Of a DNA stretch of 64,000 nt, positions 53,656 to 64,000 are shown piece by piece. Source of the DNA: Alcaligenaceae bacterium SAGV5 (lineage in GTDB: Bacteria; Pseudomonadota; Gammaproteobacteria; Burkholderiales; Burkholderiaceae_B); the NCBI GenBank assembly GCA_009360345.1, contig SPDP01000003.1, positions 620,001 to 684,000 on the forward strand, given 5' to 3'. Every line of letters begins with the position of its first letter. Positions within the stretch are counted from its first letter, which is position 1. The notes under the pieces are model-generated. The model had not been told where the DNA came from, made no database searches, and saw nothing but the letters and a program-made list of their open reading frames with translations. The position numbers and the translations under genes were made by a program.

Positions 53656-54601
53656 CGCATTCCCCCGGCGACGCCGCCGCCCTGCCCCGGCCCCGGAACA
53701 GGATGACGGCGGCCGGCGCCAGCAGCGCACCGGCCGCCGCCCATGGCAGGGCCGCGGACGGATCCAGCGTCAGGCCGAACCAGGACACGGCCGCCGGGCC
53801 GCCGGCCCCGTGGACGCGTCCATAGGCCAATTCGATCGCCAGGCTCAGTCCGGCGCACCCACCCAACGCGCCGGCGGCCGCCCAGCCTCTCGGGCGCAGC
53901 CAACCGGCCAGTTCGCGCCGGGCGACGAGCCGTGCCGCGTCGCGGGCGCCCCCCGCCAATCCTCCCGGCAGGACCAGCACGACGGCGGCAAAGACAAGCC
54001 CCAGGTACAACTGCCAGGCCCCGGTATGGCGCGACAGCGCCACCGAGAAAAACGTCACGACCACCGCGCCGGCCACGGGCCCCAGGAACAGGCCGCTGCC
54101 GCCCACCACCACCGCCAGCAGCACCGCGCCCGACCGCAAGGCGCCCAGGCTGTCGGCACTGGCGATTTCCAGATTGAGCGCCATCAACCCACCCGCCACC
54201 CCGGCGAAGAACCCCGCCATCGTCAGCATCAGATAGCGTACACGGTGGGGGTCATAGCCGATGAAAGCCACGCGCTGCGGGTTGTCCCGGACGGCGTTGG
54301 CAAGCTTGAGCAAAGGCGTCCGGCCAAGCGCATGGATCGCCAACGCGCCGGCGACCGTCCATACCGCGGTCAGGTAATAGACATGGAGGTCGGAACCCAG
54401 GCTCCATTCGGGCCAGAGGCCGGCGGCGAATGCCGGACCGGCCGTACGGTCCGCCGTCAGCCCCCCCTCTCCGCCAAACCACTCCGGCAGCACGCCCGCC
54501 GCGGCATGGACCAGCTCTCCCACTGCCAGCGAAATCATCGCGAACGGCGTTCCGCCACGGCGCGTGGTCGGATACCCGATCAGCGCGGCGAACCCGGCCA
54601 T
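53648..54601 (-). pseudogene. livM: LivM permease, 5' end missing
   Basis: A 317-residue frame homologous to the inner-membrane permease LivM from about residue 100 of a normal protein: the frame opens at MAGFAALIGYPTTRRGGTPFAMISLAVGELVHAA, where family members already have several helices behind them. In-frame stops lie about 50 bases upstream and the intervening sequence is not membrane-like. livH and livK are absent. The lost 5' part ends exactly where the fecR fragment begins on the other strand, so a deletion is the likely cause. It may still be translated but is unlikely to work. Confidence 0.75.
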
Positions 54602-54610
54602 GCTGGGCGG
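54590..54610. other. Deletion breakpoint between liv and fec regions
   Basis: The livM homology (minus strand) stops and the fecR homology (plus strand) starts within about ten bases around 54600. Both genes face outward and both lack their 5' part. No insertion sequence or long direct repeat is visible at the join. Confidence 0.65.
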
Positions 54611-55277
54611 GGGGCTGCTGATGGCCCGGCGGCCGGTATTTTCCGGCGCCGATTATCAGGCCGCCAAGGGCGAGATCCGTCCGCTCGTGCTCGAGGACGG
54701 CACGCGCCTGGTCCTCGACAGCCAGGCCGCCGTCGACGTCCGTTTCGACGCCACCCAGCGCCTGGTCTGGCTGCGGGCCGGCAACGTGCTGGTCGAAACG
54801 GCCGCCGACCCGGCGCGGCGCCCGTTCCGGGTCGGGACCGTCCATGGCCTGGCAACCTCGGTCGGGACACGCTACACCGTCCGCCTGGAGGCGCGCGCCA
54901 CCCGTGTCGCCGTGCTGGAACATGCGGTCCTGCTGCATCCCGCCCGGGCTTCCGCTCCGCCGCGCCTGATCCAGGCGGGGCAGGAGGCCGTCATGTCCGC
55001 GTGGGAGGTCGAGGCGGTGGCACAGGCCGATCCCACGCGCGCGCTGTGGGCCAGGGGCGTGCTGGTCGTTTCCGACTGGGCGCTGGGAGACGTGGTGGCG
55101 GAGCTGGCCCGCTATCGGCCCGGCTGGCTGGGCTGTGATCCCGCCGCCGCCGGCCATCGGGTCTCGGGCTCGTTTCCCCTGAACGACAGCGATGCCGCGC
55201 TGGCCGCCTTGCGGCGCACCTTTCCGGTGGAGATCCAGCGCCGGACCCGCTATTGGACGCGCATCGTCCGCCGCTAG
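54600..55277 (+). pseudogene. FecR-family regulator, 5' end missing
   Basis: A 225-residue frame with the periplasmic part of a FecR anti-sigma regulator: GEIRPLVLEDGTRLVLDSQAAVDVRF at the start (FecR domain), GTRYTVRLE in the middle and the C-terminal SGSFPLNDSDAALAALRRTFPVEI, which normally touches the receptor STN domain. About 100 N-terminal residues (cytoplasmic sigma-binding domain and most of the membrane helix) are missing, and no fecI sigma gene is present. The downstream receptor with STN domain shows that it was once part of a FecIRA-type system. Confidence 0.75.
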
Positions 55278-55380
55278 CGGATCGCGACCTTTTTTTCGCG
55301 GTGATTGTCCTTTTGGGCGCGTTCGTTCGACTCCCTATCAGGAGCACGGATCTCACGAACGTCTTGGCGAAAGGATGACC

Positions 55381-58146
55381 ATGTTGCAGGGCTGCGTGTG
55401 CGCTTTCCGGCGCACTGTCGCGCGTCGATTGTTGTGGGGCCTGATGCTGGCGGCCAGCCTGCCGGCGATGTTGCCGGCGGGCACCGCCGCGGCGGCCGAG
55501 GCGCGCTACTACGAGGTGCCGGCCGGGCCGCTGGGGGCGGCGCTCAGCCAGTTCGCGGGCATGGCGGGCGTGGTGTTGTCTTTCGATGCCTCGTGGCTGG
55601 CCGGCATGCGCAGTTCCGGGCTGCGCGGGACGTTCACGGTGCAGCAGGGCTTCAGCGCTTTGCTGGAAGCCAGCGGCTTCGAGACCGCCTACGACGCGGG
55701 CATCTATTCCCTGCGGCGCAGTCCGATCGGCCAATCGATGCTGCCGATGATCACGGTCGAGGGCGTGCGCGACCAGGATCCCAAGGACGAGGTCTACCGC
55801 ACCGCCGGCTCGCGCAGCGTGCTGACCCGCGAAGACATCGAGCGCAACCGCGGCACGTCGGTGGGCGATATCTTCCGCGGCACGCCCGGCGTGCTGGTGG
55901 GCGAGCTTCGCAACAGCGGCGGACTGGACATCAACATCCGCGGCATGCAGGGCCAGGGCCGGGTGCCGGTCCTGGTGGACGGCGCGCGCCAGGAAACCAC
56001 GGTGTATCGGGGGTATTCCGGCGCGGTCTCGCGCAGCTACATCGACCCGGATCTGATCGGCGGCATCCAGATCGACAAGGGACCGACCCTGTCGGCCGAA
56101 GGCACCGGCGCCACCGGCGGCCTGGTCAGCATGCGCACCATCAAGGCCGAAGACATCGTCCGGCCCGGCCAGGATTTCGGCCTGCGCGTGCGCGGGCAGG
56201 CCATCGGCAACAACAGCGGCTCGCCCGCGGCAGCCGGTACGCCGGCCGGGCTCTACACCGGCGGCACGCTGGGCGTTGCGCCGGTCTACCGCACCGATTG
56301 CGTGACGGCCGCCGCCTGCTCCGGGCGATACGCCCTGCCCGAGGAATGGGGCAACCCCGAGGGGCTGGACCGGCCCGGCACCTTCCGGCCCAAGAGCTAT
56401 GCCGGGAGCCTGGCCATCGCCAAGCGCTGGGAGAAATTCGATCTGGTGGCGGCCTATGCGCAACGCGAGCAAGGCAATTACTACGCCGGCGCGCACGGTC
56501 CCTCGGCTTGGGTCGATGTCTCGAACCGGCGCAAGTTGCCGTTCTATACCGAGGTTCGCCCCGAGGTCCGCGGGGCCTCGTATTTCCAGGCCGGCGAGCG
56601 CATTCCCGGCACCAACTACGAAAGCAGGTCGGCGCTGCTCAAAGGCACGTTCTACCTGCCGGCAGACCAGGAACTCGAATTGAGCTACCTGCGCTACCGC
56701 AGCGTGTACAGCGAAATCATGCCTTCGCAGATCGTCCGCTTCGCAAACTTCGCACCGATCACGCAGCCGCGCAACAGCGACGTCACCGTCGATACCTACG
56801 CCAGCCGCTACCATTGGAATCCAGCCGGTACGCCGTGGCTGGACCTGCGCGCGAACCTTTGGCATACCCGGACCCGCGCCACCAACAACAGTCCCAGCGC
56901 GACCCAGCCGGATCTCTACAACAACGAGCGCGAGAAATACCGGCGCTGGGGGCTGACCCTGGAGAACACCTCTAGCCTGGATCATCGCGCCTGGGGCGAA
57001 AGCCAGCTGCGCTATGGCCTGGCCGGGCAATGGGAGGATGTCGGCACCACGCCCCTGACGCCGGACTTCCGAGGGCTGGCGGGGCGGCAGGGCAGCCGCG
57101 ACGAATACAGCGCGTTCGTGGCCTGGCTGTACAAGCCCGTGGAAACCGTGGCGCTGGACGTGGGCGTGCGTCATACCCGTTTCAAGTCGCATGACGACAA
57201 GCCCATCACGGTCCACGATCCGCAAAGCCCGAACTGCGTGGATGCCGATGGCGATGGCGTTTGCGATCCGCTGCCCAACCGCAACAAGCAAAGCGGCACC
57301 GCGCCGGTCATCAGCCTGAGCTGGGAGCCGGGCAAGCACGGCCTGCAGTTCTACGGCCGCTATGCCGAGGCCTACCGCATGCCCAGCCTGTTCGAGAGCA
57401 CCTCCGGCTTTTCGTTCGATGCCGCGCCCGACGTCATCCTCAAGCCCGAACACACCAGGAACAAGGAAGTCGGCGTCAACTATCTCAAGGACGGCATCCT
57501 GGCCGGCCGCGACAGATTGCGCCTGAAGCTGGCCTACTTCCGCAACCATACCAAGGACTACCTGACGCGTACGACGCCCAACCTGTGGGAAGAGGGCGGC
57601 GCGGGCGGCGAGCTGAGCCAGGCCTCCAACTTCACCATGCGCAACATCGACAGCGCGACCTTCAACGGGCTGGAGTTGTCGGGTTCGTACGACCTGGGCG
57701 TGGTGTTCACCCAATTCGGCGTCACCCAGTACAACAAGATCGAGATCTGCCATACCGGCAGCTATCGCGCCGAGCGCTGCAACGACTACGGCATCGCCGG
57801 CAGCTACATCAACAACATGGTGCCGCCCAAGTGGCACGGCAACATCACCCTGGGCGCGCGACTGCTGGACTACCGGCTCGTGCTGGGCGTGCGCGGCACG
57901 TTCATGGGCCAGCGCACCAATGCTCCCCAATACAACGACGACACCCGGCGCAGCTTCCTGTCCATCGTGCCCTGGCACGCGTACCGGGTGTTCGACCTGT
58001 TCGCCAGCTATCGGGTCAACGATCGCGTCAGCATCGATTTCAACCTGGACAACATCACCGACCGCTACTACCTCGACGCCCTGAGCCTGGGACTGATTCC
58101 CGCGCCGGGCCGCACGGCGCGAGTGAGCGTGACCTTGAGGTACTGA
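55381..58146 (+). CDS. TonB-dependent receptor with STN signalling domain (heme/hemophore type)
   Basis: A 921-residue outer-membrane receptor. Signal peptide to about residue 37; STN domain about 40-110 (RYYEVPAGPLGAALSQFAG); plug about 130-270 (VLTREDIERNRGTSVGDIFRGTPGV, IDKGPTLSAEGTGATGG); then a 22-strand barrel ending in an aromatic residue (TLRY). YRMPSLFE and KPEHTRNKEVG match the FRAP/NPNL region of heme receptors. The ATG at 55381 has AAAGGA five bases upstream; the ATG at 55375 overlaps it. It heads the Slam locus, so it probably takes heme from the hemophore-like protein. Confidence 0.87.
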   Translation: MLQGCVCAFRRTVARRLLWGLMLAASLPAMLPAGTAAAAEARYYEVPAGPLGAALSQFAGMAGVVLSFDASWLAGMRSSGLRGTFTVQQGFSALLEASGFETAYDAGIYSLRRSPIGQSMLPMITVEGVRDQDPKDEVYRTAGSRSVLTREDIERNRGTSVGDIFRGTPGVLVGELRNSGGLDINIRGMQGQGRVPVLVDGARQETTVYRGYSGAVSRSYIDPDLIGGIQIDKGPTLSAEGTGATGGLVSMRTIKAEDIVRPGQDFGLRVRGQAIGNNSGSPAAAGTPAGLYTGGTLGVAPVYRTDCVTAAACSGRYALPEEWGNPEGLDRPGTFRPKSYAGSLAIAKRWEKFDLVAAYAQREQGNYYAGAHGPSAWVDVSNRRKLPFYTEVRPEVRGASYFQAGERIPGTNYESRSALLKGTFYLPADQELELSYLRYRSVYSEIMPSQIVRFANFAPITQPRNSDVTVDTYASRYHWNPAGTPWLDLRANLWHTRTRATNNSPSATQPDLYNNEREKYRRWGLTLENTSSLDHRAWGESQLRYGLAGQWEDVGTTPLTPDFRGLAGRQGSRDEYSAFVAWLYKPVETVALDVGVRHTRFKSHDDKPITVHDPQSPNCVDADGDGVCDPLPNRNKQSGTAPVISLSWEPGKHGLQFYGRYAEAYRMPSLFESTSGFSFDAAPDVILKPEHTRNKEVGVNYLKDGILAGRDRLRLKLAYFRNHTKDYLTRTTPNLWEEGGAGGELSQASNFTMRNIDSATFNGLELSGSYDLGVVFTQFGVTQYNKIEICHTGSYRAERCNDYGIAGSYINNMVPPKWHGNITLGARLLDYRLVLGVRGTFMGQRTNAPQYNDDTRRSFLSIVPWHAYRVFDLFASYRVNDRVSIDFNLDNITDRYYLDALSLGLIPAPGRTARVSVTLRY

Positions 58147-58188
58147 GACCTTGGATATTCCATTCAACCACCAGAGGGTTCCACAGCC

Positions 58189-60693
58189 ATGATTCTTTCC
58201 TTGCGCAACCTCAGGGCAGGGCTGGCGGGCATCGCCGTCATGCTGCTTGCCGCATGCGGCGGCGGCGATGGCGGCGGCGATGCCGGCACCGGCGCCGCCC
58301 GGCCCACCGCGGTGGCCACCGCCGACCGGACCAGCGTGCCCATCGGCACGGCCGTCACGCTCGACGGCAGCGCCAGCACCACGCCCAACGGCGGCACGCT
58401 GCGCTATGCGTGGACCTTGTCGGCCAAACCCGAGGGCAGCGGCGCGGTGTTGTCCGGCAACGCCAGCGCCAGGCCGACCTTGACCCCCGATCTTCCGGGC
58501 GACTACGTGGCCGACCTGATCGTCAGCGACGGCACGTCCAGCGGCAGCGCGCGCGTCACGATCACGGCGACCAGCGTCAATCCGCTGGCGGTGGCCATTC
58601 CCGCGGAACAGACGGTATTGCGGGGCGCCACCGTCGTGCTGGACGGTAGCCACAGCCTTGCGCCCACCGGCGCAGCCGTGGGCGAGCTACGGTACCAATG
58701 GACTCTGATCGAGCAACCCGACAATGAGCTGATCACCGCCCTGAGAGACGCGACCAGCGCGAAGGCCAGTTTTCTGGCCGACCGGGTCGGCATCTATCGC
58801 GCCAGTCTCGTCGTGCGGCATGGAGACAAGACCAGCGAACCTGCCGACGTCAGGATCACCGTCAATACCGGCAACAGCCTGCCGGTCGTCTCCATCACCG
58901 CGCCGGCGGATGCCGCGTACGACCGGAACGGTTACCTGGTCTTCGCCGGCACGCTGCGCCGGCCCGTGGTGCTCGACGGCAGCGGCAGCAGGGATCCCGA
59001 CGGCGACGCGCTGGGCTACCGCTGGCGTTTTCCGACCACCGCCGCGATTCCGGTCGGCAGCAAGGCCACGATCGCCAACGCTGATAGCGCCAAGACCGAG
59101 TTCGTCCCCGACGTCGTTGGCAAGTACACCTTCGACTTCATGGCCTACGACGGACACGCCGCCACCACGCAGCGCGTGATCGTGAACGTCGCGAAAGCCG
59201 CGGACGATACCGTCAATACCGCGCCGGTGGCCGGCATCTCGGGCACGGGCGAATGCGAGCTCGGCGGCACCTCCATCCACTATCCCTATTGCACGATCGC
59301 CGCCTATGCCTCCTACGATCCCGAAGGCGATCCGCTGACCTACCAGTGGACCTACTGGAACCAGGCCAGCCCGGGCGAGCGGCTGACGTCGACGGCCAGC
59401 TCCGTGGTGCTGGATGGCAGCAAGACGGGCAACTGGCGGTTCGAGCTCGTCGTCAGCGACGGCAAGCTGGACAGCGCGGTCGCGGACTATGCGCTCAGCA
59501 TCAAGACGGGCGCCAATGTCGCACCGGTGGCCAGCGCCAAGGTGGACGTGGCCAAGGTACTGGTCGGCCAGACCATCACGTTCGACGGCAGTGCCAGTTC
59601 CGACAAGAACGGCGACCAGCTTTTCTACACCTGGACCCTGGAGCGCCCGGCCGGCAGCAGCGCCGTGCTGACGCAAAGCCAGAACGATCCGACGGCCAGC
59701 GTGGTGGCCGACAAACCGGGCCCGTACATCGCTTTTCTGCAGGTCAAGGATTCCAAGGGAGCGATCAGCAACCGGGTGGGGGCAACCACCAGCGCCAGCG
59801 CCTTCGCCAAGGTGGGCAACAACCCGCCGGTACTGACGCGCCTTTCGCTTCAGAATCACTACATCTGGTATCCGAACGGCAATGGCGGCCTGGATAGCGG
59901 GACCACGCCGGGCCAGCCGGTGATCGCCGAGTCCGCCCCGATGTTTATCACCTCGAACGTCCAATACATGTTCGATCCGGATCAGGACTCGCCGCTGTAC
60001 TACGACATTTCTGTCGTCAAGCAGCCCGAAGGCGCCAACTTCCCCTCCTATTCGTGCTCGACGGCCGCCGGGGAAAAGTGCCATCCCAATGGAAACGGCT
60101 TCGACCTCGCCGTGCCGGGTGATTACGTGGTGGAGGCCAGGATCAGCGACGGGGTTGCCGTTTCCGAACCCAAGCGCGTGGCTTTCACGGTCATCAATGG
60201 GCGTGAGAACTACTCGACGCTATTGCTGGAGCGGCTCCCGGCCAATAGCCGCGACTCGGACGTGGACGGCAACATCCAGTTGTTCTTCCCCTTCACGGCT
60301 GCCGCGAATGCGCGCTTCAGCAATGTCCAGCCGGTGGAAAGCGGCGCCACGTCATTGGCCGTCGAACGTTTTCGCCTGACGGCCTTCGACCGCGACTACA
60401 CCATCGTGGACCTGCGGACGTCCTCGGTGGTCGAGGGCTACCAGCCCGTCTTCAACGGTCTTCGGAACAATCAGGTGATTCGGCAGGGCGACTCGGTGGA
60501 GTTTTCCCTGGAGCGTCCGTCCATCGTCAACGAAGCGCGGCTCTATGCCGAATGGACGGCGTTGGGCAATACGGCCGAGGGCAATGCGGAGGGAGCGCGC
60601 CTGCAAAAGATCGTGGATGCCTATCAGTTCACGTGGTCCTTCCGGGTCGCGGAAAAGGAAGGCTACACCTTGCATCGGGGGCCGCTCAATTGA
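58189..60693 (+). CDS. Large PKD-repeat surface lipoprotein
   Basis: An 834-residue lipoprotein. The signal ends LLAAC-GGG (lipobox), so the protein is lipid-anchored, with a glycine/aspartate spacer after the cysteine. About five Ig-like PKD-type repeats follow, each with a DGS..S and YRW or YTW pattern (for example VVLDGSGSRDPDGDALGYRW); the last about 250 residues form a separate C-terminal domain. It lies 42 bases after the receptor and before the hemophilin-like gene, so it may be a Slam client displayed at the surface or a receptor partner. I recognise no characterised homologue. Confidence 0.75.
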   Translation: MILSLRNLRAGLAGIAVMLLAACGGGDGGGDAGTGAARPTAVATADRTSVPIGTAVTLDGSASTTPNGGTLRYAWTLSAKPEGSGAVLSGNASARPTLTPDLPGDYVADLIVSDGTSSGSARVTITATSVNPLAVAIPAEQTVLRGATVVLDGSHSLAPTGAAVGELRYQWTLIEQPDNELITALRDATSAKASFLADRVGIYRASLVVRHGDKTSEPADVRITVNTGNSLPVVSITAPADAAYDRNGYLVFAGTLRRPVVLDGSGSRDPDGDALGYRWRFPTTAAIPVGSKATIANADSAKTEFVPDVVGKYTFDFMAYDGHAATTQRVIVNVAKAADDTVNTAPVAGISGTGECELGGTSIHYPYCTIAAYASYDPEGDPLTYQWTYWNQASPGERLTSTASSVVLDGSKTGNWRFELVVSDGKLDSAVADYALSIKTGANVAPVASAKVDVAKVLVGQTITFDGSASSDKNGDQLFYTWTLERPAGSSAVLTQSQNDPTASVVADKPGPYIAFLQVKDSKGAISNRVGATTSASAFAKVGNNPPVLTRLSLQNHYIWYPNGNGGLDSGTTPGQPVIAESAPMFITSNVQYMFDPDQDSPLYYDISVVKQPEGANFPSYSCSTAAGEKCHPNGNGFDLAVPGDYVVEARISDGVAVSEPKRVAFTVINGRENYSTLLLERLPANSRDSDVDGNIQLFFPFTAAANARFSNVQPVESGATSLAVERFRLTAFDRDYTIVDLRTSSVVEGYQPVFNGLRNNQVIRQGDSVEFSLERPSIVNEARLYAEWTALGNTAEGNAEGARLQKIVDAYQFTWSFRVAEKEGYTLHRGPLN

Positions 60694-60738
60694 ACGTTCG
60701 CGCCCGGGGTTCGCAGTGAGGCCCATTCGACTTCCATG

Positions 60739-60810
60739 GATGCCGCCGGGGATGCCCGCGGCGGCATCGTCCCGGCTGCGGCCGTCGCGGCCCGGCGGGC
60801 GCCGGGCCGC
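60739..60810 (+). terminator. Two strong hairpins between PKD gene and hemophilin-like gene
   Basis: GATGCCGCCG (60739-60748) pairs with CGGCGGCATC (60759-60768); then GCGGCCCGGC (60787-60796) pairs with GCCGGGCCGC (60801-60810) around a GGGC tetraloop. Neither is followed by a T-run. They could cut read-through or protect the downstream mRNA, giving the small secreted protein more copies than the large lipoprotein. Confidence 0.45.
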
Positions 60811-60873
60811 CTGTCCGCGGCATTCCGCCACGGGCGTCCCGTGTGCCTGGCACACACCCAAGGAGTGATGATC

Positions 60874-61713
60874 ATGAAGCAAGCACTGATTGCACTGGCC
60901 ATTCTCGCCGTCTCCGGCGCGGCGCAGGCGCAGACCTACGAGGTCGTGAGCGACAAGGCGGGCGTGGTGAACCTCGTCAACCTCGGCCCCACCACCGTGG
61001 GTGGGTTCCATGGTCCGATCGGCGCACCGGGCATCGCGGCCGCCGGCACCAGCGACTACATCAGCCTGCAAAGCATCGAGTCGTTCACCCACGTCTCCGC
61101 GCTGGACCAGACCCTGGCCGGCACCAGCACCAACTGGGTCTTCACCTACCATCAGTTGGCGCCCGGCTTCATCCATACCGAACCGGAACACGAGGGCGAG
61201 GAACCGCTGGCGGTCGGCCTGGACGGCATCAAGATTCCCGGCCTGGCCAAGAGCGTCTACTTCGGCATCGCCAGCGCGGATTCCGCCACGCCTGGCCTGG
61301 TGGACCACCAGGCATGGTACGTGGGCGACAAGAAGGACCGCGTCCTGCCGTCGTCGTCGACCGACTACGTGGGCGTGGCCCTGGTGGCGACCCCGAGCAC
61401 CGCCGTCAACGCACCGAGCGTGCTGCCTGGCCAGTTGACGGTGTCGTCGGGCGCCACATCCATTTCGGGGCAGTTCACCGCGGGGAGCGGCACGGGCAAG
61501 AAAACGCTGGAAATCGCGGCCACCGGCGGCGCGGTTTTCAGCGGAACCGCCAAGTACTACGTGGGGACGACCGCACCGGGCGCGACGAACGGCACCAGCC
61601 AGGGCCAGTTCTTCGGTGATGCCGGCGCGAACGCCAGCGCGCTGGCCGGGGTTGCCAGCGGCACGTATCTCGGCACGGGCTATGTCGCCTCTTTCGGCGC
61701 GCGCCAGAAATAA
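60874..61713 (+). CDS. Hemophilin-like secreted protein (Slam substrate type)
   Basis: A 279-residue exported protein with a Sec signal ending AQA-QTYE and no lipobox. The C-terminal part (from about residue 165) has strands and the signature GTAKYY...GQFFGDAGANASALAG, as in the TbpB-type eight-stranded barrel of Slam clients. The N-terminal half is rich in histidines (GGFHGP, FTHVS, TYHQ, FIHTEPEHEGEE, DHQAW), candidates for heme ligands. ATG 60874 has AAGGAG at the right distance; ATG 60868 is too close. It lies between receptor and Slam genes, as in known hemophilin loci. Confidence 0.72.
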   Translation: MKQALIALAILAVSGAAQAQTYEVVSDKAGVVNLVNLGPTTVGGFHGPIGAPGIAAAGTSDYISLQSIESFTHVSALDQTLAGTSTNWVFTYHQLAPGFIHTEPEHEGEEPLAVGLDGIKIPGLAKSVYFGIASADSATPGLVDHQAWYVGDKKDRVLPSSSTDYVGVALVATPSTAVNAPSVLPGQLTVSSGATSISGQFTAGSGTGKKTLEIAATGGAVFSGTAKYYVGTTAPGATNGTSQGQFFGDAGANASALAGVASGTYLGTGYVASFGARQK

Positions 61714-61747
61714 GCGGTACCCGTCTTCCCTGATGTCCACCAAAAAA

Positions 61748-61810
61748 GAAACCGCCGCCTGACACGGTGATGCGCGGTTTCTCCAGGCCCCGTTTTCGGA
61801 TGGGGCCTGG
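61748..61810. terminator. Tandem hairpins between hemophilin-like gene and slam
   Basis: GAAACCGC (61748-61755) pairs with GCGGTTTC (61774-61781), preceded by six A on the plus strand; two bases on, CCAGGCCCC (61783-61791) pairs with GGGGCCTGG (61802-61810). The first looks like a minus-strand terminator or two-way hairpin; together they could lower slam expression relative to its client. Confidence 0.5.
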
Positions 61811-61833
61811 TCGACTTGTCTCGCGCAGGCGCC

Positions 61834-63294
61834 ATGACCGTTTCATTTCCCCGCTCTCTCTGCTGGATCGCATGGCTGTGGTGCCTGGGCCTGGGCTGCG
61901 CCTGGGCCCAGCAGGACACGGCTGACCGGCTCTGGCAGGGTGCCGAGCAGCAATCCCGGCAAATCCGCCGCCAGACCGTCCCGTCCCGACCCGAAGGCCA
62001 GGGAAGCTGGGTCCACGAGTCCATGCTGTCGGCCTGGCAGGTTCCCGAAGCCCGGGTAGGGCAGCTCACGCTCGCCATCCTGAACGCCGTCAACCAGCAC
62101 GACTGGTTCGGCGCGGACCGGCTGCTGCGCCAGTACCGACAGGTTCCCAGGCACGATCCGGCACTGTTCACGTTCGTCGAGGCCAGCCGCCTGGCGGCAC
62201 TGGGCGATCATGCCGACGCCATCGACCGCTACCGCCAGGTGCTGCGGGCCAATCCCTTGTTCACCCGAGGCGACCTGGACCTGGCGCGCGTGCTGTTCAT
62301 CGACAATCGCCTGCGCGATGCGCGGGAGATCTTCCAACGGCTGCAGGCCCGGCAGCTGCCGCCGGAAATCGAACGGCACGTTGCCGACTATCTGGCGGCC
62401 ATCGAGCAGCGCACGCGCATGCGGATCACGCTGTCCCTGTCGGCGGTACGCGAGGACAATCTGAACAATGCCTCGACGATCGTGGACCCGTGCGCACTGC
62501 GGTTCCTGGACGCCTGCTTCGAGAACGTGCCGGGCCGCAAGGCCGCCGACACCGGCGCCTATTTCGAAGGCACCCTCAACAAGCTATGGCCGCTGGCGGG
62601 CAACCACGCCTTCATGCTGCGCAGCCTCAACTATGGCAACCGCTACCGGCACGAAGACGACTACGGCAACCTCGCATCGACCACTTACCTCGGTTACCAG
62701 TACGGGTCGGCGCGCAATCAGTTCCAGTTCCTGCCGCTGTTCGAATACGACCGCGAAGGTGGGCATAAGGCCTACCACGCCTTCGGTTTTCGAACCAGCA
62801 TCAGCCGGCAGTTGAGCCCGCGCGCGATGCTGGAAGCCAGCTACGAAACCAAGTATCGCCATTTCGCGCAGCGGCTGGAAAGCCTGGAAGGCGACTTTCG
62901 CAGCATGGGGCTGTTCGGACAGTACGTGATCCGCCCCGATCTGCTGGTGTACGGCAGCCTGGCCTGGCGCGAGAGCGGTGCGCGCCTGGGGATCTTCGCC
63001 TACCGCGAAAAGAGCGCGCGTCTGGGAATCTACAAATCGTTCGGCGGCAAGGTGGCCGTCAGCATGGCCTACGGCTACCGCCAGCGGCAGGCGGACGAGG
63101 CCGTTGCGCTGTTCGAGAAGCGCCAGCGCGACCACGAGGGCAGCCTGTACGTGAACGTATCGCTACCCGGCTACGCCTGGCACGGGATGACGCCCACCAT
63201 GAGCTACGAGTACCGCAAGAATCGCAGCAGCATCCCGCACCTTCATACCTACGAGAAGAACCGCCTCACGCTGGGCTTCACCAAGGTTTTTTGA
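61834..63294 (+). CDS. Slam/DUF560 outer-membrane translocator
   Basis: A 486-residue outer-membrane protein of the surface lipoprotein assembly modulator family (type XI secretion). Signal peptide to about 27 (GCAWA-QQ); TPR repeats about 65-185 (GDHADAIDRYRQVLRANPLFTRGDLDLARVL); then a 14-strand barrel from about 195, starting RITLSLSAVREDNLNNA and ending in TKVF with a C-terminal Phe typical of outer-membrane proteins. It would carry the hemophilin-like protein, and perhaps the PKD lipoprotein, across the outer membrane. The ATG at 61834 is chosen. Confidence 0.88.
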   Translation: MTVSFPRSLCWIAWLWCLGLGCAWAQQDTADRLWQGAEQQSRQIRRQTVPSRPEGQGSWVHESMLSAWQVPEARVGQLTLAILNAVNQHDWFGADRLLRQYRQVPRHDPALFTFVEASRLAALGDHADAIDRYRQVLRANPLFTRGDLDLARVLFIDNRLRDAREIFQRLQARQLPPEIERHVADYLAAIEQRTRMRITLSLSAVREDNLNNASTIVDPCALRFLDACFENVPGRKAADTGAYFEGTLNKLWPLAGNHAFMLRSLNYGNRYRHEDDYGNLASTTYLGYQYGSARNQFQFLPLFEYDREGGHKAYHAFGFRTSISRQLSPRAMLEASYETKYRHFAQRLESLEGDFRSMGLFGQYVIRPDLLVYGSLAWRESGARLGIFAYREKSARLGIYKSFGGKVAVSMAYGYRQRQADEAVALFEKRQRDHEGSLYVNVSLPGYAWHGMTPTMSYEYRKNRSSIPHLHTYEKNRLTLGFTKVF

Positions 63295-63328
63295 CGATGC
63301 TTGAACACCCTTTGACGGAACCCCCATC

Positions 63329-64000
63329 ATGAAGATCCAACTCCGACACCTGCTCGTCCCGTGTCTGCTGCCCGTGCTGCTGGGCGGCTGCCTTTCCACC
63401 TCCCACATCCGCGCGGTCCCGGACAAAAAACGTCCGCAGGTCATCAGCCATGCCGAAGGCCTGGAGCGCGACCGGCAGGCCATCCTGGCGATGGTGGGCG
63501 AGTACCGGGTCAGTTTCAATTTCGAGGAAAGCGATCCCGCGCCGGGCTATGAGCCCAAGCGGCGCTACCGCAGCGGTGCCTACGAGATGGTGCTGGTGGC
63601 CGAGGACCAGGGCGACCGCATCGTGCTCCAGCATCTGCTGGTGCATCGCACCGCCGGATTCGTGGTCAAGCATTGGCGCCAGGACTGGCGCTACCAGGCG
63701 CCGGCGCGGCTGGAGTTCACGGAGAACCAGACCTGGCGCCTGCGGCCCATCGATCCGGCCGTCACCAAGGGGGCCTGGACGCAGTGCGTCTACGAGGTCA
63801 GCGATGCGCCGCGCTATTGCGGCACCGGCAAATGGACCTACGAGAACGATGTGCCGACGTGGACCTCGGATGCCGGGTGGCGGCCGTTGCCGCGGCGCGA
63901 ATACACCCAGCGCGGCGACTACAACGCGCTGGGCATCGTCAACACGCACCGCATCACGGCCGAGGGCTGGCTGCACGAACAGGCCAATCGCAAGGTGGTG
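63329..64000 (+). CDS. Lipoprotein of unknown function, 3' end outside window
   Basis: At least 224 residues. The signal ends LLGGC-LST (lipobox), so it is a lipoprotein. The body has WRQDWRY, PRYCGTGKW and LPRREYTQRGDYNAL, which remind me of the DUF6607 family; the match needs a search to confirm. It starts 34 bases after the slam stop and is cotranscribed, so it is part of the heme/Slam locus, perhaps an envelope chaperone or heme handler. The stop lies beyond base 64000. Confidence 0.65.
   Translation, partial: MKIQLRHLLVPCLLPVLLGGCLSTSHIRAVPDKKRPQVISHAEGLERDRQAILAMVGEYRVSFNFEESDPAPGYEPKRRYRSGAYEMVLVAEDQGDRIVLQHLLVHRTAGFVVKHWRQDWRYQAPARLEFTENQTWRLRPIDPAVTKGAWTQCVYEVSDAPRYCGTGKWTYENDVPTWTSDAGWRPLPRREYTQRGDYNALGIVNTHRITAEGWLHEQANRKVV

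Follow-up and report, generated by a model that had tools for sequence, protein, structure and literature searches.

A putative heme-acquisition operon of Pigmentiphaga joining a hemophilin-like Slam cargo with a RhuH-type lipoprotein

Known heme-uptake loci and the Pigmentiphaga arrangement

The hemO cluster of Acinetobacter baumannii consists of genes for an extracytoplasmic function (ECF) sigma factor and an anti-sigma factor, followed by hphR, hphA, hsmA and genes for a TonB-related protein, a heme oxygenase and a hypothetical protein (PMC10483418; sources cited herein by PMC number were available in part, and statements on them refer to those parts). A similar order of sigma/anti-sigma, receptor, hemophilin and Slam genes (PMC10483418, PMC8560813) was found in the 64 000-nucleotide stretch of DNA analyzed here, hereafter the window, which comprises positions 620001–684000 of contig C10 from Alcaligenaceae bacterium SAGV5. 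The original prediction for this window, made from its letters alone, had proposed a hemophilin-type locus in an Alcaligenaceae-like genome, and the genus could now be given as Pigmentiphaga, which fits this description. All genes that it named were present on the plus strand, in the order that it had described, encoding a TonB receptor, a large PKD lipoprotein (K319L-like PKD match at 5.4e-42), a cargo protein with a TbpB-type barrel, a Slam translocator and a further lipoprotein, now recognized as a DUF6607 protein. What it had overlooked were the FecI–FecR half of the locus and the identity of the last lipoprotein as a homologue of RhuH. Based upon homology, predicted fold, residue conservation and gene linkage, we consider this to be probably a heme-acquisition operon, in which a PKD partner and a lipoprotein of RhuH type, as a second heme binder, are added to a hemophilin locus, under the control of surface signalling.

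Compared with hemO, the Pigmentiphaga locus differs in having the PKD lipoprotein between receptor and cargo, in having DUF6607 after Slam instead of the TonB-related and heme oxygenase genes, and in a cargo so diverged that the Pfam HphA models miss it. A DUF6607 homologue adjoining a TonB heme receptor, as in Pigmentiphaga, is also found in the rhuH-rhuR-rhuA locus of Riemerella anatipestifer, although rhuH is there divergent from rhuR, the system is one of Flavobacteriales, RhuH is found in vesicles and the available text mentions neither a Slam nor a hemophilin for the locus (PMC11967795). RhuH (PDB entry 8xjc) binds heme with a dissociation constant (Kd) of 3.44e-11 M, is secreted in vesicles, removes heme from hemoglobin and depends on His96, which coordinates the heme iron in a pocket having Arg143, Tyr144, Arg170, Arg183 and Gln198 at the propionate side; its homologues are described as occurring mostly in Weeksellaceae and Flavobacteriaceae (PMC11967795). 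The heme-iron histidine and four of these pocket residues are shared with the Pigmentiphaga DUF6607 protein. The has operon of Serratia marcescens (hasI, hasS, hasR, hasA, hasD, hasE, hasB) likewise combines sigma/anti-sigma factors with a signalling heme receptor, a haemophore and an exporter (PMC9249621). Pigmentiphaga differs from has in the folds of its putative haemophores, in using Slam as exporter and in a receptor that does not keep the HasR residues His189 and His603. HasDE is a type I exporter.

The part of the locus from receptor to Slam covers positions 55381–63294, whereas the DUF6607 gene crosses the window end and stops at 64309; all intergenic gaps from receptor to DUF6607 are within 34–174 bp. 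The host assembly amounts to 6.0 Mb in 16 contigs, with a listed contamination of 7.63%. With loci judged from open reading frames (ORFs) of at least 100 amino acids, the full five-gene set, in unchanged order and with FecR ahead, was found in four of the ten other Pigmentiphaga genomes, as was the Slam gene, and the order was identical in all five carriers including the diverged copy of P. humi. Protein identities to the window were 94–100% over the five genes in three carriers, while those of P. humi (G005) were 78% for the receptor, 55% for PKD, 45% for the cargo, 67% for Slam and 86% for DUF6607. A scan of named genomes using the cargo alignment, from which records very close to the window's genome were possibly excluded, gave three loci, in P. 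kullae K24 (100%, best segment), the metagenome-assembled 'Burkholderiales bacterium 67-32' (99%) and P. humi (45%). Ratios of nonsynonymous to synonymous substitution (dN/dS) against the three near congeners were 0.00–0.24 over the five genes, with the lowest values for the cargo (0.00–0.03). The recurrence in four of ten congeners and the low dN/dS argue that the locus is not a chance occurrence. A sigma-70 scan of 55200–64000, which does not cover ECF promoters, gave no promoter-like site. About 68 bp between the PKD and cargo genes (about 60703–60786) are missing from three congeners.

In the literature searched, we found no earlier report of a hemophilin-type Slam locus that contains a gene related to another haemophore family. 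The words PKD, Achromobacter and Bordetella are absent from the available main text of two surveys of type XI secretion systems (T11SS; PMC12282271, PMC8406197). A literature search having subscription journals mostly outside its reach found no publication under the name DUF6607 and, among the matches listed, no title on heme uptake of Pigmentiphaga; for RhuH, one relevant paper was among the matches listed, the word RhuH occurred only in the RhuH study itself among ten papers listed in a further search, and for a double haemophore or a PKD link PMC8560813 alone surfaced.

The hemophilin-like cargo and its Slam translocator

The gene at 60868–61713 (plus strand) encodes a hemophilin-like secreted protein of 281 amino acids, the putative Slam cargo, with a signal peptide of about 22 residues as judged by eye. 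Using Pfam, in a run that included the upstream frame from 60736, the anticipated TbpB_B_D match was obtained as the only one but at 23.3 bits it stayed below the cut-off of 26. Profiles reached further. A profile of the five Pigmentiphaga cargoes matched the hemophilins 8gmm (1.5e-7) and 7re4 (7.6e-6) in the PDB, and also 9us7, and an 11-row profile, with eight rows taken from Slam loci elsewhere in the family and three from Pigmentiphaga, matched five such entries (hemophilins and 9us7) at 7e-27 to 2e-24. An AlphaFold model, for which the input alignment included hemophilin relatives and templates were not used, had a mean predicted local distance difference test score (pLDDT) of 68.5, with parts of the clamp below 50, and a predicted template modelling score (pTM) of 0.74. 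When this model was submitted to Foldseek, the first seven chains were all hemophilins (8gmm, 8gm3, three of 7re4, 6om5 and 8glo), followed by the C-lobe of TbpB; the match to 8gmm had an E-value of 2.9e-10 and a template modelling (TM) score of 0.73 by target length or 0.61 by query. The eight-stranded C-terminal barrel of TbpB type expected of a Slam cargo was thereby recovered as predicted. Since profiles and Foldseek both reach hemophilins, the fold and family are supported, and the cargo can be regarded as a divergent hemophilin, as far as profiles and a predicted model go.

The histidine-rich nature ascribed to the N-terminal half proved modest, with five histidines in residues 23–130; the P. 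humi copy retains H48 and H103 from among these, and also H147 farther on. H48 lies within GGFHGPIGAPGI, which by eye appears to resemble GGPHQAGKAGI of S. maltophilia HphA, and H103 is shifted relative to the HphA position. The motif around H147 is shared, as seen by eye in the alignment, with cargoes having no HphA histidine, and H147 is therefore not evidence for heme. Placing both HphA histidines on the cargo was attempted and found impossible, either from profile alignments or on the low-confidence clamp.

The following gene (61834–63294, plus strand) encodes a Slam, or type XI outer-membrane translocator, of 486 amino acids with an N-terminal TPR part. The assignment to Slam/DUF560 held, with SlipAM matching at 1.8e-46 over profile positions 4–288 of 288 and TPR_Slam at 7.7e-18, and this was the single match in the host genome. 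In a tree of 37 Slam sequences it clustered with those adjoining hemophilin-like genes (13 rows, support 94/85), apart from the 24 others, and with a long stem under the Pigmentiphaga pair. A chance match or mis-annotation of Slam and cargo was ruled out by hidden Markov model (HMM) matches, cargo profile, fold and tree; cargo profile and fold, the tree grouping and the gene order resembling hemO together support a hemophilin-type Slam locus. Two other loci of the family, L048 and L050, also have FecIR, a receptor and a Slam, the latter in a different tree group, and the cargo of L050 has a barrel of FHBP_C type.

Between the cargo and Slam genes, a strong hairpin is found at 61783–61810 (plus strand), modest in comparison with control windows. 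Cargo–Slam hairpins occur also in P. humi (L035:9573-9725) and in other genera, with unrelated sequences. With the borders set by eye, the count of perfect stems was unusual (<2% of control windows) in six of 15 loci and not in nine, several of which had a stem interrupted by GU pairs or bulges; by energy, all 15 loci, of which Pigmentiphaga accounts for five, had their best hairpin within the strongest 0–17% when ranked against windows of equal size, and in L052 and L180 it differed from the perfect-stem one. With such mixed controls the hairpin is suggestive only, and it might reduce the expression of Slam relative to that of the cargo.

The DUF6607 lipoprotein as a RhuH homologue

The last gene of the array (63329–64000 within the window and on to 64309, plus strand) encodes a DUF6607 lipoprotein of 326 amino acids, matching PF20311 at 1e-53 with its in-window part and at 5.3e-65 as a whole. 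Compared with PDB sequences using phmmer, this protein matched 8xjc, titled 'haemophore', at 1.7e-55, with the next match at 0.16. The His96 of RhuH, found in VKHWRQDW, corresponds to H115 as counted along the alignment, and His96, Arg143, Tyr144, Arg170 and Gln198 were conserved in all of the 25 aligned ORFs, which came from 25 loci including five from Pigmentiphaga and one weak, partial match (L116). In Pigmentiphaga the protein carries the lipobox LGGC; other homologues have either a lipobox or a plain signal peptide, as judged by pattern and eye.

DUF6607 was found in five of 268 genomes of the family, these being the five carriers of the locus, and in 21 of 398 genomes of a phylum sample, the window's own included. 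A TonB receptor was present in 15 of the 20 DUF6607 stretches fetched outside the genus, its frame overlapping that of DUF6607 or lying at most about 610 bp from it. No Slam was found in these 20 loci, whose fetched flanks measured up to about 9 kb and in some cases less, and one genome of the same order (G114) has both DUF6607 and Slam genes, widely separated. Among the sampled genomes, RhuH-type and Slam/hemophilin genes share one locus only in Pigmentiphaga.

A HemP-like motif was present in the stretch of six of the 20 loci. Four of these (L098, L099, L100 and L103, three being near-identical) have a HemP-like motif, a receptor, a protein of the 206-amino-acid type and DUF6607, the same order as in hemP-hemA-smlt0796-smlt0797 of S. 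maltophilia, which L102 also follows except for lacking the 206-amino-acid gene (PMC9241770); L104 has the motif together with a distant relative of the 206-amino-acid protein, with no receptor found by HMM. Unlike Pigmentiphaga, the fetched loci of hemP-hemA order have no Slam. In S. maltophilia, HemA serves as the receptor for hemin, and a signal peptide of 20 residues is predicted for Smlt0797 (PMC9241770). From operon order and signal peptide, smlt0797 is probably a DUF6607 gene, and the DUF6607 proteins of the six loci, which come from Proteobacteria, likely belong to the Smlt0797 family.

These observations have a bearing on a simpler explanation, by which the cargo would be the sole haemophore of a plain hemophilin locus and the DUF6607 protein a heme-handling accessory of the periplasm or outer membrane. 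This would agree with the lack of Slam in 20 of 20 fetched loci outside the genus, of which four have the hemP–receptor operon order, with the unimpaired growth on hemin of S. maltophilia upon deletion of smlt0797 (PMC9241770), and with the DUF6607 homologues varying by eye between lipobox and plain signal peptide, which leaves the family without a constant surface anchor. We nonetheless find this explanation rather doubtful, considering the homology at 1.7e-55 to a protein that strips heme from hemoglobin at picomolar-range Kd (3.44e-11 M), the retention of its coordinating histidine, and the fact that the Stenotrophomonas assays cited are of hemin utilization, with none using hemoglobin in the available passages (PMC9241770).

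Receptor, PKD lipoprotein and the proposed operon

The first gene of the array (55381–58146, plus strand) encodes a HasR-like TonB-dependent receptor with an N-terminal signalling (STN) domain, as judged from HMM and solved-structure matches. The profiles of the TonB barrel (6e-43) and plug (7.5e-21) were matched, as was, above its cut-off, the TIGR01785 heme/hemoglobin receptor model (1.7e-106). Pfam STN itself remained sub-threshold (15.4 of 28.4 bits); the best solved match, HasR at 2e-56, was nevertheless in an alignment covering the N-terminal signalling domain, and the N-terminus also matched those of FecA and PupB. The receptor also carries FRAP-like and NPNL-like boxes. At E ≤ 1e-80, it was found in ten of 268 genomes of the family, namely the five carriers and five genomes of the genus g14, and such a receptor was seen in two of 369 genomes of a class sample; as scoring was limited to the two or three top candidates of each genome, absences are here weak evidence. 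Each of the carriers has a second receptor copy at 58–60% identity, and one has a third at 57%. The five g14 genomes have six receptors of 39–40% identity, all six adjoined by a hemophilin-like gene (split into two frames in L055) and five with a Slam within the fetched stretch, and both g14 cargoes given to Pfam (L042 and L046) passed the cut-offs of HphA_N and HphA_C.

Ahead of the receptor lies the C-terminal part of a FecR-like anti-sigma gene (54564–55277, plus strand; FecR at 5e-16), matching NF007296 at positions 105–312 of 313, under the cut-off of that model. The homology to three congeners begins at 54596/54597, inside FecR, while FecI and the N-terminal half of FecR are found on another contig of the same assembly (C13:143134-143982); in the three near congeners, the receptor is preceded by FecI and by FecR in an open frame. 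The parts needed for cell-surface signalling of FecIR type, i.e. STN on the receptor together with FecI and FecR genes, are thus present. At 54596, FecR is joined to a truncated permease gene of LivM/UrtC type on the opposite strand, both genes being cut, and a match to the upstream portion that the permease locus has lost is found about 70 kb off in opposite orientation (C10:744520-746090). A simple inversion does not account for all of these pieces, and the break may be either a rearrangement or a misassembly.

The second gene (58189–60693, plus strand) encodes the PKD-repeat lipoprotein, of 834 amino acids, having a lipobox cysteine (C23) that is invariant in nine of nine aligned homologues. 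Its predicted structure is a chain of Ig-like domains, and a fold search with this model gave only strings of such domains, with TM scores below 0.3 among the 50 matches listed and no ligand suggested. Its C-terminal 295 residues had matches in three of 369 genomes, counting its own, and within 19 kb of the match in G975, one of the three, no relative of the receptor was found. A PKD lipoprotein follows, and FecR precedes, each of the 12 receptors found at about 48% identity or higher (five first copies, six further copies in the carriers and one in G333, of another family). FecI precedes the receptor in 11 of the 12 loci, with the exception of the broken one in the window, split over two contigs. 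The seven of these loci other than the first copies showed by HMM neither hemophilin nor Slam nor DUF6607 within the stretches fetched. One of the seven, a second copy in the window's own genome (contig C9; L141:5302-12273), has a receptor of 58% identity and is without haemophore genes. As the FecI–FecR–receptor–PKD module is found by itself, the hemophilin–Slam–DUF6607 part looks like an addition to it.

The same seven loci, which include the second copies in all five carriers, would also agree with two adjacent but independent systems, one of FecIR, receptor and PKD for one ligand and the other of hemophilin, Slam and DUF6607 with a receptor elsewhere. We consider this unlikely in view of the one-strand array with its gaps of 34–174 bp, the order kept in five of five carriers, and the related g14 receptors, which adjoin hemophilin-like genes in six of six cases with Slam in five of the six stretches.

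A number of observations weigh against the proposed heme-acquisition operon. Heme-receptor motifs had been predicted for the receptor; TIGR01785 and the FRAP- and NPNL-like boxes agree with this, but the histidines that serve as heme ligands in HasR are not conserved and failed as a sign of heme, His189 being a tyrosine as counted along the alignment and His603 having no histidine counterpart, with no histidine at all between the two boxes. Because receptors beside clear HphA genes likewise lack both, this is not evidence against a hemophilin receptor. The cargo of the window did not match Pfam HphA_N or HphA_C at E ≤ 1, a second heme histidine could not be placed in its low-confidence clamp loops, and dN/dS against the P. 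humi copy was 0.16–0.74 and highest for the cargo, which thus is not constrained throughout. For the DUF6607 protein, Arg183 of RhuH is kept in only one of 25 ORFs (isoleucine in the window), the RhuH dimer residue Glu160 is not conserved, five of the 20 fetched loci had no TonB receptor by HMM, and the smlt0797 deletion left growth with hemin unimpaired. Finally, T11SS cargoes with other ligands exist, such as the cobalt receptor protein CrpC (PMC12282271). A ligand other than heme, being another porphyrin or a metal chelate (e.g. cobalamin, cobalt or a metallophore), would fit the missing HasR histidines, CrpC and the diverged N-terminal half of the cargo but is quite unlikely considering TIGR01785 above cut-off, a cargo closest to hemophilins by profile and fold, the largely conserved RhuH heme pocket, and the occurrence of heme oxygenase-family genes in 11 of 11 Pigmentiphaga genomes and of HemS in 10 of 11.

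For the proposed heme-acquisition operon, we infer export, heme binding, direction of transfer, signalling and the role of PKD as follows. Heme, probably brought by a haemophore, would bind the HasR-like receptor, whereupon its signalling domain would act on FecR, freeing FecI for transcription of the operon. The hemophilin-like protein would be taken by Sec to the periplasm and by Slam across the outer membrane, to pick up heme outside and hand it to the receptor. The DUF6607 lipoprotein may be a second heme binder at the outer membrane or on vesicles, either capturing heme or relaying it between soluble haemophore and receptor. The PKD lipoprotein, as a constant partner of this type of receptor, could perhaps be a surface stalk that keeps heme proteins or haemophores close. 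More tentatively, these parts might form a surface relay of two structurally unrelated haemophores, one a soluble hemophilin exported by Slam and the other a RhuH-type protein with a lipid anchor, which serve one signalling receptor alongside a PKD stalk, and Slam may export both. Since heme oxygenase and HemS, as inner parts of heme use, are encoded in carriers and non-carriers alike, the locus probably supplies an additional means of heme capture rather than the sole heme route.

The cluster seems to bring together two heme-catching proteins of unrelated kinds, of which one belongs to the RhuH family, so far linked to heme only in a distant phylum, and the pairing with PKD in 12 of 12 loci gives this receptor a new partner for testing. 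The analysis links DUF6607 with a haemophore of measured heme affinity and with operons of hemin type in Proteobacteria; for proteins like Smlt0797, whose function has been described as unclear (PMC9241770), it can therefore be tested whether or not they bind heme via one named histidine. If the surface relay were true, the RhuH family would be a widespread heme-capture protein of Proteobacteria under the name DUF6607, including in hemin operons of Stenotrophomonas type. Pigmentiphaga is an environmental genus, and its locus offers a natural case for testing how tasks are divided between a soluble heme carrier and a lipid-anchored one, and between the haemophore and signalling by the receptor.

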